A DNA stretch of 60,979 nt from Actinomycetota bacterium. GTDB taxonomy: Bacteria; Actinomycetota; Thermoleophilia; Gaiellales; Gaiellaceae. The notes below the pieces were generated by a model. The model was given only the letters and a program-made list of their open reading frames with translations. It was not told the origin of the DNA and made no database searches. The stretch lies in the NCBI GenBank assembly GCA_005885245.1, contig VAWR01000008.1, positions 1 to 60,979 of the forward strand, written 5' to 3'. Shown here in pieces: positions 8,792-57,637 of the stretch. Numbering within the stretch: position 1 is the stretch's first letter; the number at the start of each line of letters is the position of its first letter. A program made the position numbers and the translations under genes.

Positions 8792-9301
8792 ATGGCGATC
8801 ACGAACCCCGACACGGCGGCCGCTCCAAAGATCCCGCAACTGCCCGAGGAACTGATCGCGTCGACCACGTTCCTGCTGAAGCGCCTGGGCTTTGCCGCCA
8901 AGGAGCGGACGATGAAAGCGTACGAGGGCACCGGCCTCCACCCTTACCATCACGCGATCTTGCTGGTGCTCGACGAGCGCTCGCGCGAGACGCAGGGATC
9001 GATCGCCGACGCACTGGGCTACGACCGCGGCCAGCTGGTCGGGCTCCTCGACGAGCTCGAAGAGCGCGGGCTGGTCGAGCGCCGTCGGGATCCCAACGAC
9101 CGCCGCCGTCACATCGTCCGCCTCACCGGTGAGGGAAAGCGGATGCTGCGTCGACTACGTGCGCTCGCGACGCAGATCGAGGACGAGTTCCTCTCGCCGC
9201 TCAGCGAGAAGGAACGCGTGAATCTGCACGCACTCTTGCTCCGCCTCGCGGAGAAGCACGAGCCGCGCTGCGCGCTCTCCTCTTCGCCCGTACGAACTTA
9301 G
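8792..9301 (+). CDS. MarR-family transcriptional regulator
   Basis: 169 residues from ATG 8792 (a TTG lies two codons earlier). Winged helix-turn-helix: ETQGSIADALGYDRGQLVGLLDELEERGLVERRRDPNDRR matches the MarR recognition helix and wing, with flanking helices for dimerisation. It is divergent from the DHA2 exporter, so it probably represses the pump and itself. Its stop codon lies inside the left arm of the 9295-9321 palindrome. Confidence 0.9.
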   Translation: MAITNPDTAAAPKIPQLPEELIASTTFLLKRLGFAAKERTMKAYEGTGLHPYHHAILLVLDERSRETQGSIADALGYDRGQLVGLLDELEERGLVERRRDPNDRRRHIVRLTGEGKRMLRRLRALATQIEDEFLSPLSEKERVNLHALLLRLAEKHEPRCALSSSPVRT

Positions 9302-9321
9302 TGGCTCTGAGCCACTAAGTT
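9295..9321. terminator. 27-bp palindrome carrying the stop codons of two convergent genes
   Basis: Arms AACTTAGTGGCTC and GAGCCACTAAGTT are perfectly complementary around a single T. TAG at 9299-9301 ends the MarR gene and the mirror-image TAG (CTA at 9315-9317) ends the EamA gene. The core GTGGCTC-W-GAGCCAC recurs at 26002 and 26071, also beside gene ends, so it is probably a bidirectional terminator-like repeat. Confidence 0.7.
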
Positions 9322-10211
9322 CCAGACTCCGGTACCGCCTGTGCAGCCCGTCGTCTACGCGCAACTACGCCGGAGGCGAGCGTGACGCCGACGAGGATGA
9401 GCGCAAGACCGCCCACCTTCGCTCCCGTCAACGGCTCGCCGAGAATCGTGGCGCCGTAGAAAAGCGCGAAGCCCGGGAGGAGGTAGTTGACGAGCATCGA
9501 CCGCGCCGAGCCGTGCTCGCCGATCAGCCGGTTCACGATCAGCTGCGCGATGCCGGTTCCGACGACTCCGAGCACCACGACCGAGGCCAGCGGCTTCCAC
9601 CCGACCGAGTCGGGCAAGTCCGCGAGCGCGAACGGAAGCATCGCGACGGCACCGCAGACGGCCGACGCAGCCGCGAGCTCGAGCCCTCCGACCACGAGAC
9701 TGCGCTGGATATAGAGGCTGGAGACGGCGTAGCACAGCGATGCCAGCACGACCGCGAGCGCTCCGGCGATGGCCCACCAGCCGCCGTTCGGATGCACCCC
9801 GGCGACGACACCGACACCTGCGAGCCCAACCATGAGGCCGAGCACGCGTAGTCCACTCGAGCGCTCGCTTGCTGCGAATCGGAGGGCCAGCAGCGCTACG
9901 AAGATCGGGACCGACGAATTCGCGACCGCGGCAACACCGGAGTCGACATGCGTCTCGCCCCAGGAGATCAGCAGGAACGGGAGGGCCATCCCGACCACGC
10001 CGACGAACGCTCCGGGAGCGAACGCGGGGCGTACTGCACGCAGGCCTCGCCGAACGGCGACGAACGAGACGAGGACCGCACCCGCGAGCAGCAGCCTCAA
10101 CTCGACCAGCGCCGCAGGCGAGAAGTCCCGAATCCCGACCTTGATGAACATGTACGACGAGCCCCAGATCGCCGACAGCAGTAGGAGCGGCAGCAGGTAA
10201 GAGCGCTTCAC
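9315..10211 (-). CDS. EamA/DMT-superfamily transporter
   Basis: 298 residues with ten membrane helices in two EamA halves (LLLLSAIWGSSYMFIKVGI at the start; YLLPGFALFYGATILGEPL in the second half). GTG at 10211 is preferred because the upstream extension is charged and overlaps the preceding gene. Exports small metabolites; substrate unknown. It lies 4 bases after the nucleoside-transferase-like gene, suggesting cotranscription. Confidence 0.85.
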   Translation of the reverse strand: MKRSYLLPLLLLSAIWGSSYMFIKVGIRDFSPAALVELRLLLAGAVLVSFVAVRRGLRAVRPAFAPGAFVGVVGMALPFLLISWGETHVDSGVAAVANSSVPIFVALLALRFAASERSSGLRVLGLMVGLAGVGVVAGVHPNGGWWAIAGALAVVLASLCYAVSSLYIQRSLVVGGLELAAASAVCGAVAMLPFALADLPDSVGWKPLASVVVLGVVGTGIAQLIVNRLIGEHGSARSMLVNYLLPGFALFYGATILGEPLTGAKVGGLALILVGVTLASGVVARRRRAAQAVPESGT

Positions 10212-23331: not shown

Positions 23332-23499
23332 GTGAACGGAGTGGCGGACCTTCCCGCAGCGAGTGCCGGCCACGAAGTCGTGTGCCCCCATTGCAAGAAG
23401 ACGTTCACGGCCGAGCTGATCGCCGGCCAGACCGAGCGTCACCGTGGCTTCAAGTGCCCGCACTGCAAGCTCTTCGTCCCGGTTGACCGCGCGACTTAG
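23332..23499 (+). CDS. 55-residue double-CPHC zinc-ribbon protein
   Basis: GTG at 23332 to TAG at 23497. Two Cys-Pro-His-Cys knuckles (VVCPHCKKTFTAEL and FKCPHCKLFVPV) spaced 24 residues apart form a compact zinc ribbon. It starts 14 bp after the nitroreductase gene, and the stop is followed at once by a 13-bp-arm hairpin. Too short to be called by length filters. Role unknown; nucleic-acid or protein binding is plausible. Confidence 0.75.
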   Translation: MNGVADLPAASAGHEVVCPHCKKTFTAELIAGQTERHRGFKCPHCKLFVPVDRAT

Positions 23500-23942
23500 C
23501 CCGCGCGAAAGCTACGCTTTCGCGCGGGGGTTTGGGTACGGCGCTTCGCGCGTAACGCGCACGGGCGAAGCCCGTGCGCTCCTTTTGGGGTTTGTTCTTG
23601 CCGCTTGGATTGGTCCACGGGCGGCGGCGCCGGAGCCGTCGCCGCCCGTGTGAGGTCGGCCTCCTCGTAGCCCGGCTGCGCCTGGTCTACGCTCCGGCCC
23701 TCGGTGTTGGGTGGTGAACGCGGGCTCAGGCAGAACCATGAAGGCCGGAGGCTAAGACCAGGCGCAGCCGGGCTTAGCCTCCGGCGGAGTGATGCGGGCG
23801 CGGCCGCGAAGCGCCCGTGCCCGCACGGTTCGGGAACAACCGCCGAGCACCAACACCAATTGGAGTGCGCGGGCTCCGCCCGCGCACGTCACGCGCGAAG
23901 CGCCGTACCTAGAGCCGAGCGAAAGCGAAGCTTTCGCTCGGG
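23500..23942. repeat. 443-bp concentric palindrome of nested hairpins
   Basis: Two diverged inverted copies of a ~210-bp unit meet at about 23721. From outside in: hairpins 23500-23528 (13-bp arms) and 23915-23941 (12-bp arms); GGTACGGCGCTTCGCGCGT at 23535-23553 repeated inverted, 19/19, at 23891-23909; hairpins 23557-23579 and 23865-23887 (10-bp perfect arms); hairpins 23616-23650 and about 23794-23828; and a central stem of 20 bp (23669-23688 with 23755-23774) plus 8 bp (23692-23699 with 23743-23750) closing a 43-nt loop. No gene or transposase is inside. The left outer hairpin probably ends the zinc-ribbon transcript. A shorter relative lies at 29548-29618. Confidence 0.85.
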
Positions 23943-23966
23943 CGTCAGCGTGCCGATGAAGCTGGC

Positions 23967-25994
23967 GTGGCTGCCGTCGACGTTGCTTCCCCACGTGCGG
24001 ATCCGCACGTCTTCCCGGGCTGGGTCTGGCTGTCCGGGATCATGCTGGCCAGCTTCGCCGGCCGTTTCCTCGCGGCGGCCTCTCGACCGGCGCCGTACTA
24101 CCTGCCGGACGAGTACATCTACCCGTCGCTTGCGCGCGGCTTCGCCGAGCACGGGCGCCCGCTGATCCGGGGGGTCGGAGCTCACTTCCCGGCGCTTCTC
24201 GATCCCATCGTCACTGCGCCGGTCTGGCTGGTCACCAGCGATCCCGTCACCGCCTTCCGGCTCACGCAGGGCTTGCACGCAGTCCTGTTCTCGCTCGCCG
24301 CAATTCCCGCCTATCTCCTTTGCCGCCGCCTCGGGCTCTCGCTCTGGGTCGGAGTTGCCGTCGCCGCGCTGACTGTCGCCGTCCCGGATGGCGTCTACTC
24401 GTCCACCATGCTCGCGGAGCCGCTCGCGTACCCGCTCGTGCTCGCCGCCGTCTACGCGGGCGTCTGCATGGTCAGCGAGCCGACGAAGCGGGCCCAGCTC
24501 GCGTTCGCCGTCTTCAGTGCACTCGCGGTAGCAGCGCGCATCCAGTACGCGATCGTCCCGTTGGCGGTCCTCGTCGCCGAGCTCGTTGCCGATCGCGGCC
24601 GCTTGCATCGGTCCATTCGTCGGATCTGGGTGGCGCTCGTCCTCCTCCTCGGCCCTCCTGTCACCCTGTTGGTGATGCTCGGCTCGAACCGTGTGCTGGG
24701 CGTCTACGCACACCCGAGCAGCGCAATTGACCCGGGCGCGATCCTGCACTGGATCGGCCTCGAGGGAATGCTCCTCACGTACGCCGGCGGCTGGGTGATC
24801 GTTCCCGGCGCCCTCGCGGGCCTGGCGCTTGCGCTCTTCCGATCACTGCGCCGGGCAGAGCTCGCCTTCGCGATCACGACGGTCGTGCTCGCCTGCGGAC
24901 TCCTGCTCGAATCGGCACAGGTCGCACACACCGACTCGCAGCGTTTCCAGGAGCGCTACCTCTTCACGCTCGTGCCGCTCCTCGCCACGGCGTTCGGCCT
25001 CTACCTCAAACGAGGACTGCCCTGGCGCGTCCCCGTCGGCCTGCTTTCGGCAGCACTGCTGCTGGTCGCCGCTCGGGTCCCGCTCTCCGGCTACGCGGCG
25101 GCTCACAACAAGGATGACTCGCCCACGCTCTGGGCAGTCCTCAGGCTCGAGGGACTCGTATCCGTCGGGAACGGTGCGCTGGCCGTGGCGCTCGTCGCCG
25201 CGGCGCTGTCGATCCTTGCGGCGCTCGTCGCGTTCCGGAGACTTCCCGCCTCGCTCGCCTTCGTCGCTGCGATCGTGGCGTGCTGCTCGCTCTCCGCCGG
25301 GGCGTCCGCCTTCGACTCGCGTACGAGCCAGAGTCTGCGTGGCACGCTTCCCGCGGACCTGCGCTGGGTCGACCACGCCCACCTCGGCGACGTCGACCTC
25401 CTGGCACCTCCCAGGGCGCGGAAGGAACAGTCCTGGGAGCAGTTGTTCTGGAACACATCCGTCAAACGGCTGCTGCTTCTCGGCAGCCCGCCAATCGACC
25501 GATTCGACGCGAAGGTCGTCCAGGTCAGAGGTGACGGCACATTGCTCGTCGACGGCCACCCGGACCGGAAGCCGCTACTCGTGCAGACGTACGGGTCCAC
25601 GGTGCAGCTGACCAGCGTTCGGCGCGTTCGGCACCAGCTGATCTTCGACCTGTATCGCCCAACCGGGACGCCGCGCCTGCGGCTCGTGGCCGCGGGGCGG
25701 TACGCCGACGACTGGCTCGCGCCGCGAGGCGTGATCACCGTCTGGACGAAGACGGGCGGAACGCTCGAGCTCGTGCTCGCCCAGCAGGCCGGCACGCAGG
25801 TGACGCCGATGCGGTTCACCGCCAGGGGCGCCGTCCGCACGCTCCGGGTTCACCCCGGCCAGCGCCTGACGCTCAGCTTCCAGGTCCCGGCCGGCGGCGC
25901 CTGGAACCTGCACTTCCGGACGACGAGGCCCGGCTACCTCGGCGACCGCGCCGTCAGCGTCATCGCCAAAAGAGTCACGTTTCGCCCGCGCTGA
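23967..25994 (+). CDS. GT-C-like polytopic membrane protein with C-terminal beta domain
   Basis: 675 residues. The N-terminal ~460 contain 11-13 membrane helices; the first loop PAPYYLPDEYIYPSLARGF resembles the Asp/Glu-containing loop of GT-C glycosyltransferases (ArnT/PMT type), and HTDSQRFQERYLFTLVPLL is a conserved late block. The last ~200 residues are a soluble, beta-rich extracytoplasmic domain. Probably transfers a lipid-linked sugar outside the membrane. Starts just after the giant palindrome, whose distal hairpins lie in its leader. Confidence 0.7.
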   Translation: MAAVDVASPRADPHVFPGWVWLSGIMLASFAGRFLAAASRPAPYYLPDEYIYPSLARGFAEHGRPLIRGVGAHFPALLDPIVTAPVWLVTSDPVTAFRLTQGLHAVLFSLAAIPAYLLCRRLGLSLWVGVAVAALTVAVPDGVYSSTMLAEPLAYPLVLAAVYAGVCMVSEPTKRAQLAFAVFSALAVAARIQYAIVPLAVLVAELVADRGRLHRSIRRIWVALVLLLGPPVTLLVMLGSNRVLGVYAHPSSAIDPGAILHWIGLEGMLLTYAGGWVIVPGALAGLALALFRSLRRAELAFAITTVVLACGLLLESAQVAHTDSQRFQERYLFTLVPLLATAFGLYLKRGLPWRVPVGLLSAALLLVAARVPLSGYAAAHNKDDSPTLWAVLRLEGLVSVGNGALAVALVAAALSILAALVAFRRLPASLAFVAAIVACCSLSAGASAFDSRTSQSLRGTLPADLRWVDHAHLGDVDLLAPPRARKEQSWEQLFWNTSVKRLLLLGSPPIDRFDAKVVQVRGDGTLLVDGHPDRKPLLVQTYGSTVQLTSVRRVRHQLIFDLYRPTGTPRLRLVAAGRYADDWLAPRGVITVWTKTGGTLELVLAQQAGTQVTPMRFTARGAVRTLRVHPGQRLTLSFQVPAGGAWNLHFRTTRPGYLGDRAVSVIAKRVTFRPR

Positions 25995-29068: not shown

Positions 29069-29562
29069 TGTCCGAGCTGCTCGAAGCGCTGTACCAGGGA
29101 CAGGACGAGCGAGTTGGAGAGCTCCTGGCCGGCGACCCGCTGCTCGACGTCTTCGAGGCCGCCGCCCTGGGCAGGACTCCACGCCTGCGAGTCCTCTTGG
29201 AGGAAAATGCCTCACTGGCCAACGCGTTCGGCGACGACGGCTTTCATCCGTTGGGCCTGGCGTGCTTCTTCGGACACCTGGAGGCCGCGCGTCTCTTGCT
29301 GGAGCACGGCGCCGACGTGAACGTCCTCTCGCGAAACGAGCACATCCAGACCGCGGCGATCCACGCCGCCTGTGGCGCTCAGGACGTGGACGAAGCAACT
29401 CGATACGACCTGGTCGAGCTCGCACTCGAGCACGGCGCCGATCCGAACCTCCCGCAGGGCGGCGGCTTCCGCCCGATCGACGCGGCCCGGCAGAACGGTG
29501 ACGCTCGCGTCGAACAGCTGTTGCTCGACCACGGCGCCGCTTCCCCACCGGGCGAAAGCTGA
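29068..29562 (+). CDS. ankyrin-repeat protein
   Basis: 164 residues with about four ankyrin repeats: GFHPLGLACFFGHLEAARLLLEHGADVNVL and the last repeat GFRPIDAARQNGDARVEQLLLDHGA are clearest; TAAIHAACGA marks another. Protein-protein interaction scaffold, overlapping fpg by one base. The last codons GGCGAAAGC and the stop form the left arm and loop of a hairpin, so the C-terminus was apparently set by insertion of the repeat element. Confidence 0.88.
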   Translation: MSELLEALYQGQDERVGELLAGDPLLDVFEAAALGRTPRLRVLLEENASLANAFGDDGFHPLGLACFFGHLEAARLLLEHGADVNVLSRNEHIQTAAIHAACGAQDVDEATRYDLVELALEHGADPNLPQGGGFRPIDAARQNGDARVEQLLLDHGAASPPGES

Positions 29563-29618
29563 CGCTTTCGCCCGGGATTGGGTACGGCGCCTCGCGCCGA
29601 AAGCGCAGCTTTCGGCGC
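29548..29618. repeat. short copy of the hairpin element, at a convergent gene junction
   Basis: Hairpin 29548-29575 (arms CCGGGCGAAAGC/GCTTTCGCCCGG, loop TGAC holding the ankyrin stop), then GGGTACGGCGCCTCGCGCC matching 23534 onward with one change near its middle, then hairpin 29594-29618 (11-bp perfect arms). Same order of parts as the outer end of the 23500-23942 palindrome. It fills the space between two convergent stop codons and is likely a bidirectional terminator. Confidence 0.8.
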
Positions 29619-29622
29619 GGAG

Positions 29623-49167: not shown

Positions 49168-49397
49168 GAGCCCGTCTCCAGCGCGCGGGCAAGGGAAGGG
49201 GCTGAAGGGGAAACCGTGCGGTTTCCCCTTCCTATCTCCTCGGCCCAGGCGGCGATCTGAGCGGCGCGTGGGTCGAGGCGTAACCCAAAGAAGGGAGCTC
49301 GTGAGGGAAACATGGTTTCCCTCACGGGAGCGAGCCGCAGGCGAGCAACCCCGGCACAGAATGAACGCGGGGCGGCCAGCAGGACGCGGCGCGTCAC
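49164..49397 (-). CDS. 77-residue ORF: duplicated ispH start plus inserted hairpin DNA
   Basis: GTG 49397 overlaps the hpnG stop; the ORF ends TGA overlapping the ispH GTG. The first 17 codons are a second copy of the ispH N-terminus: RVLLAAPRSFCAGV is identical in both, although 8 of those 14 codons differ at the third base. The remaining ~60 codons read through a hairpin-rich insert. It may keep translational coupling from hpnG to ispH; the product itself is unlikely to be catalytic. Confidence 0.55.
   Translation of the reverse strand: MTRRVLLAAPRSFCAGVARLRLAPVRETMFPSRAPFFGLRLDPRAAQIAAWAEEIGRGNRTVSPSAPSLARALETGS
49205..49325. repeat. two related hairpins inside the ispH-start insert
   Basis: AAGGGGAAACC/GGTTTCCCCTT with loop GTGC (49205-49230) and GTGAGGGAAAC/GTTTCCCTCAC with loop ATG (49301-49325). 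Both share the core GGGAAAC...GTTTCCC, 96 bp apart, like the paired hairpins of the 23.5-kb and 29.5-kb elements. Confidence 0.75.
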
Positions 49398-57613: not shown

Positions 57614-57637
57614 GTGGGGGAGCGGAGGCTCCCCCAC
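57614..57637 (-). terminator. hairpin after the sugar-ABC binding-protein gene
   Basis: Arms GTGGGGGAGC and GCTCCCCCAC with a 4-base loop, 8 bp downstream of the minus-strand stop at 57645. No T-run, which is usual for high-GC Actinobacteria. Confidence 0.6.

Follow-up and report, generated by a model that had tools for sequence, protein, structure and literature searches.

A palindrome next to a stop codon is one copy of a dispersed hairpin repeat family of an uncultured Gaiellaceae genus

The window analysed here, a stretch of 60,979 nucleotides from a Gaiellaceae bacterium, contains a two-armed palindrome at 23499-23943 (445 bp) that is far above chance and is one member of a repeat family, hitherto unlisted, of an uncultured Gaiellaceae genus. 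Its presence and absence at orthologous sites shows that it is mobile. We read it as a non-autonomous, mobile, two-armed foldback hairpin element of Gaiellaceae. For this reading as a whole, including the inferred spread, the upkeep of the stems and a role as a terminator, we estimate a probability of roughly 0.6.

A self-inverted-repeat search centred all paired elements near 23721 (Table 1). A preliminary description of this DNA had claimed nested elements with this common centre, and all of them were recovered where it had placed them. Its outer hairpins, 10-bp hairpins and third pair correspond to H5, H3 and H2, and the two halves of its 19/19 inverted repeat are exact reverse complements. 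The central stem is present as well, but it spans 33 nt at 82% around a 40-nt loop, and not 28 bp around 43 nt as claimed. The outer arms pair over 85 nt at 78% (23523-23607 with 23837-23921), and the terminal inverted repeats measure 29 nt at 90% and 85 nt at 78%. RNA folding of both strands, which had also been proposed, gave z = -13.2 for the plus and -17.1 for the minus strand, and none of the shuffles was as stable. In the whole 61-kb window, 6 of the 11 perfect hairpins (at least 10 bp, 3-4-nt loop) belong to this element or its mini-copy, and only 0.5 are expected in all from mononucleotide shuffles. Other perfect hairpins in the window are of another kind (9294-9322, 49204-49231, 49300-49326 and 57614-57637); those near 49.2-49.3 kb are alike (GGGAAAC..GTTTCCC).

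Table 1. Parts of the element in the window, its mini-copy and the adjoining genes.
Feature	Position	Strand	Remarks
Whole two-armed foldback element	23499-23943		Self-inverted repeats; near-full copies at 84-89% in own genome
H5-left, terminal hairpin, 13 bp perfect	23500-23528		Adjoins TAG stop (23497-23499) of upstream gene
H4-left, GCGC-TTC-GCGC	23541-23551		Other strand shows GAA loop; within 19/19 inverted repeat 23535-23553 / 23891-23909; arm alignments
H3-left, 10-bp hairpin followed by TCCTTTT	23557-23579	+	Intrinsic-terminator-like, faces upstream gene
H2-left hairpin	23616-23650		Self-inverted-repeat search
Central stem with 40-nt centre	23669-23774		23669-23701 with 23742-23774; each side foldable locally as H1
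H1-right local hairpin	23744-23785		15/16 pairs formed
H2-right hairpin	about 23793-23826		Sequence, fold, arm alignment
H3-right, 10-bp hairpin	23865-23887		Arm alignment, covariation
H4-right, GCGC-GAA-GCGC	23893-23903		Sequence, arm alignment
H5-right, terminal hairpin, 12 bp perfect, core AAAGC-GAA-GCTTT	23915-23941		Inverted-repeat search, alignment
Upstream gene, 55-aa CxxC zinc-ribbon ORF	23332-23499	+	TAG stop touches H5-left; orthologues in congeners
Downstream gene, 675-aa membrane protein	23967-25994	+	Orthologues served to locate empty sites
Mini-copy, two H5 hairpins and GGATTGGGTACGG linker	29548-29619		Between convergent genes; stop of left gene is TGA in H5 loop

The repeat is dispersed over about 15-20 sites of its own genome (G000, a 213-contig assembly). 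Near-full copies number five (433-445 bp at 84-89%, one of 386 bp), and there are partial ones besides. A covariance model of H3-H5 (R1) scored 49 hits in G001, 32 in G000, 31 in G009, 30 in G005 and 20 in G008, among at most 150 scored candidates and in genomes that, like all those compared, are incomplete metagenome assemblies. Since a full element is hit once per arm and certain palindromes match on both strands, sites are fewer than hits. Eight congeners stood above the weak level, while G004 and G007 had 2-3 weak hits only. A diverged version is clearly present in G120 (22 hits), which represents another genus of the family, and among 399 sampled genomes of the class the repeat was found in Gaiellaceae only. 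A pattern scan of named genomes matched only soil Actinobacteria MAGs, one of them labelled Gaiellaceae. The H3 pattern was absent from the viral contig collection, and our literature search returned no paper describing repeats of this sort in Gaiellales. Many of the copies are found at the ends of contigs, as expected for a 440-bp repeat. On two contigs of G000 (L026 on C60 and L028 on C180), the same gene end precedes the element interior, whose orientation is reversed from one contig to the other; this is due either to a population-level inversion of the element or to an assembly effect. The preliminary description had proposed the search for related copies that brought out this family in the genome itself and in congeners; the multi-copy family, the mini-copy and the link to stop codons were absent from its account.

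An alignment of 49 copies gave the order of the arm, from the centre to the outside, as H1-H2-linker-H3-H4-(C)GTACC-linker-H5. The full element consists of two such arms, inverted and about 200 bp each, around a variable centre. On the centre-to-outside strand, the H5 loop reads GCA in 17, GAA in 16, GGA in four and GTA in one of the 49, with GTCA in four more; the H4 loop is GAA in 40/49, and H1 mostly has GNA between GC pairs. Unlike these three, H3 mostly has TNC on this strand, which is GNA on the opposite one. C-GNA-G triloops are unusually stable in DNA, d(GCGAAGC) being the classic case. Two studies make use of stable mini-hairpins of the d(GCGAAGC) sequence (PMC10527192 and PMC4686876). 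In G120 the stem sequences are different, but hairpin order and loop type are kept, with the core AAAGTGC-GCA-GCACTTT. Internal deletions take out entire hairpins, and several shortened forms retain whole ones, namely H5 alone, H4+H3, H5+H1 and H1+H5 (L257, L262, L263, L266).

Between sites, left arms are 0.92 and right arms 0.86 identical, as opposed to 0.64-0.73 for left and right arms within one copy. Therefore, the element is copied as a whole, with both arms together. Arms at unrelated sites have 81-96% of their sequence in common. The same sites recur across species, but orthologous ones were also found empty. No element is present at the window site in G001, G004, G006, G007, G008 and contig C348 of G003, and in G001, G004, G006 and G008 the zinc-ribbon gene and the gene of the 675-aa membrane protein, which we take to be glycosyltransferase-39-like (GT39-like), adjoin without the element. 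The site is occupied in G009 and in contig C171 of G003, where the element comes after the same gene end; the difference between the two G003 contigs points to a strain polymorphism within the MAG. The empty orthologous sites, among them the case of a single MAG that has both an occupied and an empty contig, indicate that the unit is mobile. At site C116, the stops of the convergent genes nearly or actually overlap in relatives (CTAG), whereas G000 has 386 bp between them, and the mini-copy site at 29548 shows the same contrast between empty relatives and occupied G000. When empty and occupied sites were compared, no consistent target duplication was seen; the element ends merge with stop codons. 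A non-autonomous element had been one of the candidates of the preliminary description, and the many copies at 84-89%, the copying of a two-arm unit between sites and the empty orthologous sites bear it out. Its argument against an assembly fold-back also stands, given related copies inside the contigs of many independently assembled genomes.

In congeners, the spacer from the zinc-ribbon gene to the GT39-like gene contains a short conserved palindrome, TCCCTCGTTCAAGGGA (L225, L226, L227, L231, L234); this hairpin is missing in G000, where the window element sits. A comparison of L086 with L025 revealed a single G008 element joining the outer flanks of two G000 elements about 6 kb apart, suggesting recombination between copies. 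On contig C68 of G008 (L223), the GT39-like gene has lost residues about 121 to 602 in a large internal deletion that fused its remaining parts, and one element arm follows directly after it.

The outermost hairpin, H5, usually begins at a gene's stop codon. At 31 of 53 ends, an ORF of 100 aa or more has its stop between -14 and +8 relative to the H5 core, compared to 5.6% at random flank positions (p = 2e-25), although the 53 ends are not fully independent since orthologous sites recur. Purifying selection in a compact genome, instead of the choice of an enzyme, may account for this preference. H5 stems often take in the stop codon or the coding tail, and the inner strand matches. One orthologous gene, for example, has TCGCTAGCGAAAGC...GCTTTCGCTAGCGA in G000 (stop TAG) and CTGAGCGAAAGC...GCTTTCGCTCAG in G008 (stop TGA). 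In four copies (C30, C45 and window position 29548 in G000, and C77 in G009), a long ORF of 172-384 codons without an earlier stop ends at a TGA in the H5 loop, which here has four bases and is read in the frame GAA-AGC-TGA. Relatives of three of these four genes retain an ordinary stop. In the copies whose loop contains the stop codon, a non-coding repeat is seen taking over a gene's end. Two further TGAC loops are unused as stops: in one case the gene has an earlier stop, and in the other no gene ends in the flank. On the gene-sense strand, a T-rich tract comes after H3: 30 of 49 arms have four or more T within 8 positions, against a background of 4.3%. This tract is weak in the second genus (G120), and H5 has no T run of 5. 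Judged by these sequence features, the element is probably a two-way 3'-end or terminator cassette and would hence be tolerated.

The stems are kept paired while their sequences change. Across H3-H5 of 57 arms, 97.9% of cells were paired, and 15 of 26 pairs had changes on both sides. Cells with double changes numbered 119 compared to 30.7 in shuffles, and 0 of 500 shuffles reached 119, but arms within one genome are related and these cells are not independent events. When the partner was slid by one column, pairing fell to about 30-34%. The strongest covarying column lies in H5 (AU 18, CG 18, GC 14). Watson-Crick pairs made up 1414 of the 1463 cells, G-U pairs 18 (1.2%) and mismatches 31. The scarcity of G-U intermediates is suggestive, though no proof, of pairing being kept at the DNA level or by template switching. 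This process makes and mends hairpins and produces multibase compensatory changes in one step (PMC8794818). The preliminary description had asked for a covariance analysis and had suggested selection on structure. Two outcomes that it had named as refuting, a lack of related copies and a lack of covariation in the stems, did not occur. The maintenance of pairing is indeed supported by overwhelming covariation, but selection itself is unproven, and correction by template switching of the DNA fits equally well. Orthologous arms were no more alike than non-orthologous ones (0.748 and 0.736, p = 0.36), so that arms may turn over, homogenise or be saturated; paralogous arms of the same genome were slightly more alike (0.778, p = 0.06). 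With dozens of copies, gained and lost sites, ten congeners and few G-U intermediates, the family is a natural test bed for whether hairpins stay perfect through selection or through replication template switching.

Searches for other identities and for a mobilising enzyme gave the following results. The window had no match in Rfam at gathering scores and none in the tRNA and tmRNA search. Reverse transcriptase (PF00078) was absent in 9 of 9 genomes, with positive controls. Y1 transposases are present in nine of ten congeners and in G120. In 13 genomes, 26 Y1 loci were inspected; neither the element nor its hairpin core occurs at any of them. One Y1 gene (L138:1357-2353) lies between the halves of an unrelated inverted repeat of its own, GGGGTCAGGTCTTGCATTC/GAATGCAAGACCTGACCC; Y1 genes with their own terminal repeats have been named 'TIRYT' genes (PMC3733652). 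Repeats like GGGGTCAGACCCC also occur beside some hairpin elements (L030, L100, L112), and around ten 40-bp direct repeats (CCGAGGGACTGTCCCTGGG...) lie near a Y1 transposase gene of G000 (L139:703-1138). No autonomous copy, cognate enzyme or arm pair enclosing a transposase was found in these incomplete genomes. L269 (C77 of G009) was considered as a parent element, its arms being 3.5 kb apart, but the interior consists of ordinary cyclase/ATPase-like genes, as though the element had received genes at its centre. Integron attC sites, group II introns and CRISPR-type repeats were set aside on anatomy alone.

According to our preferred reading, the element would disperse as folded single-stranded DNA, its loops being of the GNA type, which is highly stable in DNA, and would be mobilised by an enzyme that reads the hairpin shape and the AAAGC-GNA-GCTTT core. 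The stems would stay perfect through replication template switching and/or selection. Copies would survive at gene ends because nothing is disturbed there, and H5-H4-H3 with the T tract may act as a terminator and 3'-end cap toward each flanking gene. A bolder version, which we put forward as a rather unlikely extension, would define the element by DNA shape and not by sequence: ordered GNA-loop hairpins would be moved as single-stranded DNA by a hairpin-reading enzyme and targeted to stop codons, their stems would be continually re-matched to the host coding tail by template switching, and the loop would be able to supply the stop codon.

A true REP/BIME (REPIN-like) family, mobilised by RAYT, a Y1 HUH transposase recognising single-stranded hairpins, would have a similar layout of inverted pairs of hairpin units at gene ends, and Y1 transposases are at hand in nearly all congeners and in G120. 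Such a family is nevertheless unlikely: the Y1 loci lack the element and its core, one having its own unrelated repeat, copy number does not track Y1 (49 hits with one Y1 in G001, 3 hits with seven in G006), and there is no constant GTAG tag. Slightly more doubtful is a structured RNA, regulatory or stabilising in the 3'-UTR, whose covariation would reflect selection on the transcript. Covariation is strong, and the position just past stop codons makes transcription probable. A G-U share of 1.2% is low for RNA-level selection, however, the two strands fold about as well as each other, relatives have gained and lost sites, and the flanking genes have no functional relation; nor did Rfam offer a match.

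It also seems improbable that terminator hairpins grew in situ at tail-to-tail stops, by template switching or hairpin extension and without transposition. H5 stems do hold stop or coding-tail bases with perfect inner complements (TCGCTAGCGA in G000, CTGAGCG/CGCTCAG at the same gene in G008), empty sites such as the CTAG common to two convergent genes are palindromic themselves, and the making and mending of hairpins by template switching is known (PMC8794818). Local growth, however, could not give arms at unrelated sites 81-96% identity. It can thus explain stem upkeep, not dispersal, and as the only mechanism it is largely refuted. Nucleoid proteins can bind to dispersed palindromes, as is known for REP/BIME, but a chromosome-architecture or DNA-binding-protein site is very improbable for about 20 patchy sites that are absent in sister species such as G004 and in which the hairpin sequence varies while pairing stays. 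The chance of an assembly fold-back or chimera is close to nil: many copies do lie at contig ends, and L026 and L028 differ in orientation after the same gene, but copies with different arm sequences occur well inside contigs of several independent assemblies.

REP/BIME/REPIN sequences are GTAG-tagged (or CGTC) palindromes with RAYT transposases and more than 100 copies per genome. The mobile foldback element resembles them as a lineage-specific, non-coding set of dispersed GC-rich hairpins in inverted pairs, located between genes, at gene 3' ends and between convergent genes. REPs are found mostly between convergent and unidirectional genes (PMC3733652), and this placement is present here, with 31/53 ends at a stop codon and inverted arms. 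Unlike REPs, each Gaiellaceae arm lines up five different hairpins in a set order and has GNA loops, and a loop is usable as a stop codon. The bases before H5 vary (TTTAG, ATTGA, TATGA, CTAA), a stop codon recurring and not a tetranucleotide. Copies number tens instead of hundreds (at most 49 hits per genome, among at most 150 scored candidates in incomplete assemblies), and no RAYT is associated at the 26 Y1 loci. The element is REP/BIME-like in kind but is not filed under REP.

With MITEs that have long terminal inverted repeats (ERIC- and Correia-like), the element shares a non-coding, multi-copy, inverted-repeat nature and presence or absence between relatives. In contrast to them, it consists of hairpins throughout, its terminal stems vary between copies yet remain paired, and neither a parental transposase nor a defined target duplication was seen. 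Mitochondrial hairpin elements, such as the RHE of sponges (PMC2800124) and the palindromic repeats of Volvox (PMC2670323), are likewise dispersed, mobile and non-coding; going by the excerpted descriptions, the bacterial chromosome, the ordered five-hairpin arms and the tie to stop codons set the present element apart. Intrinsic (bidirectional) terminators are also GC-rich hairpins just past stops, similar to H3 with its T-rich tract toward each gene, but the Gaiellaceae element is far longer, common to many sites, and gained or lost as a unit. Five-hairpin ordered arms, GNA loops and a terminal stem taken partly from the flanking stop codon form an anatomy not found among these relatives. 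We rate the element as an addition to the dispersed bacterial hairpin elements, one that brings an unlisted repeat family to a poorly known soil lineage.
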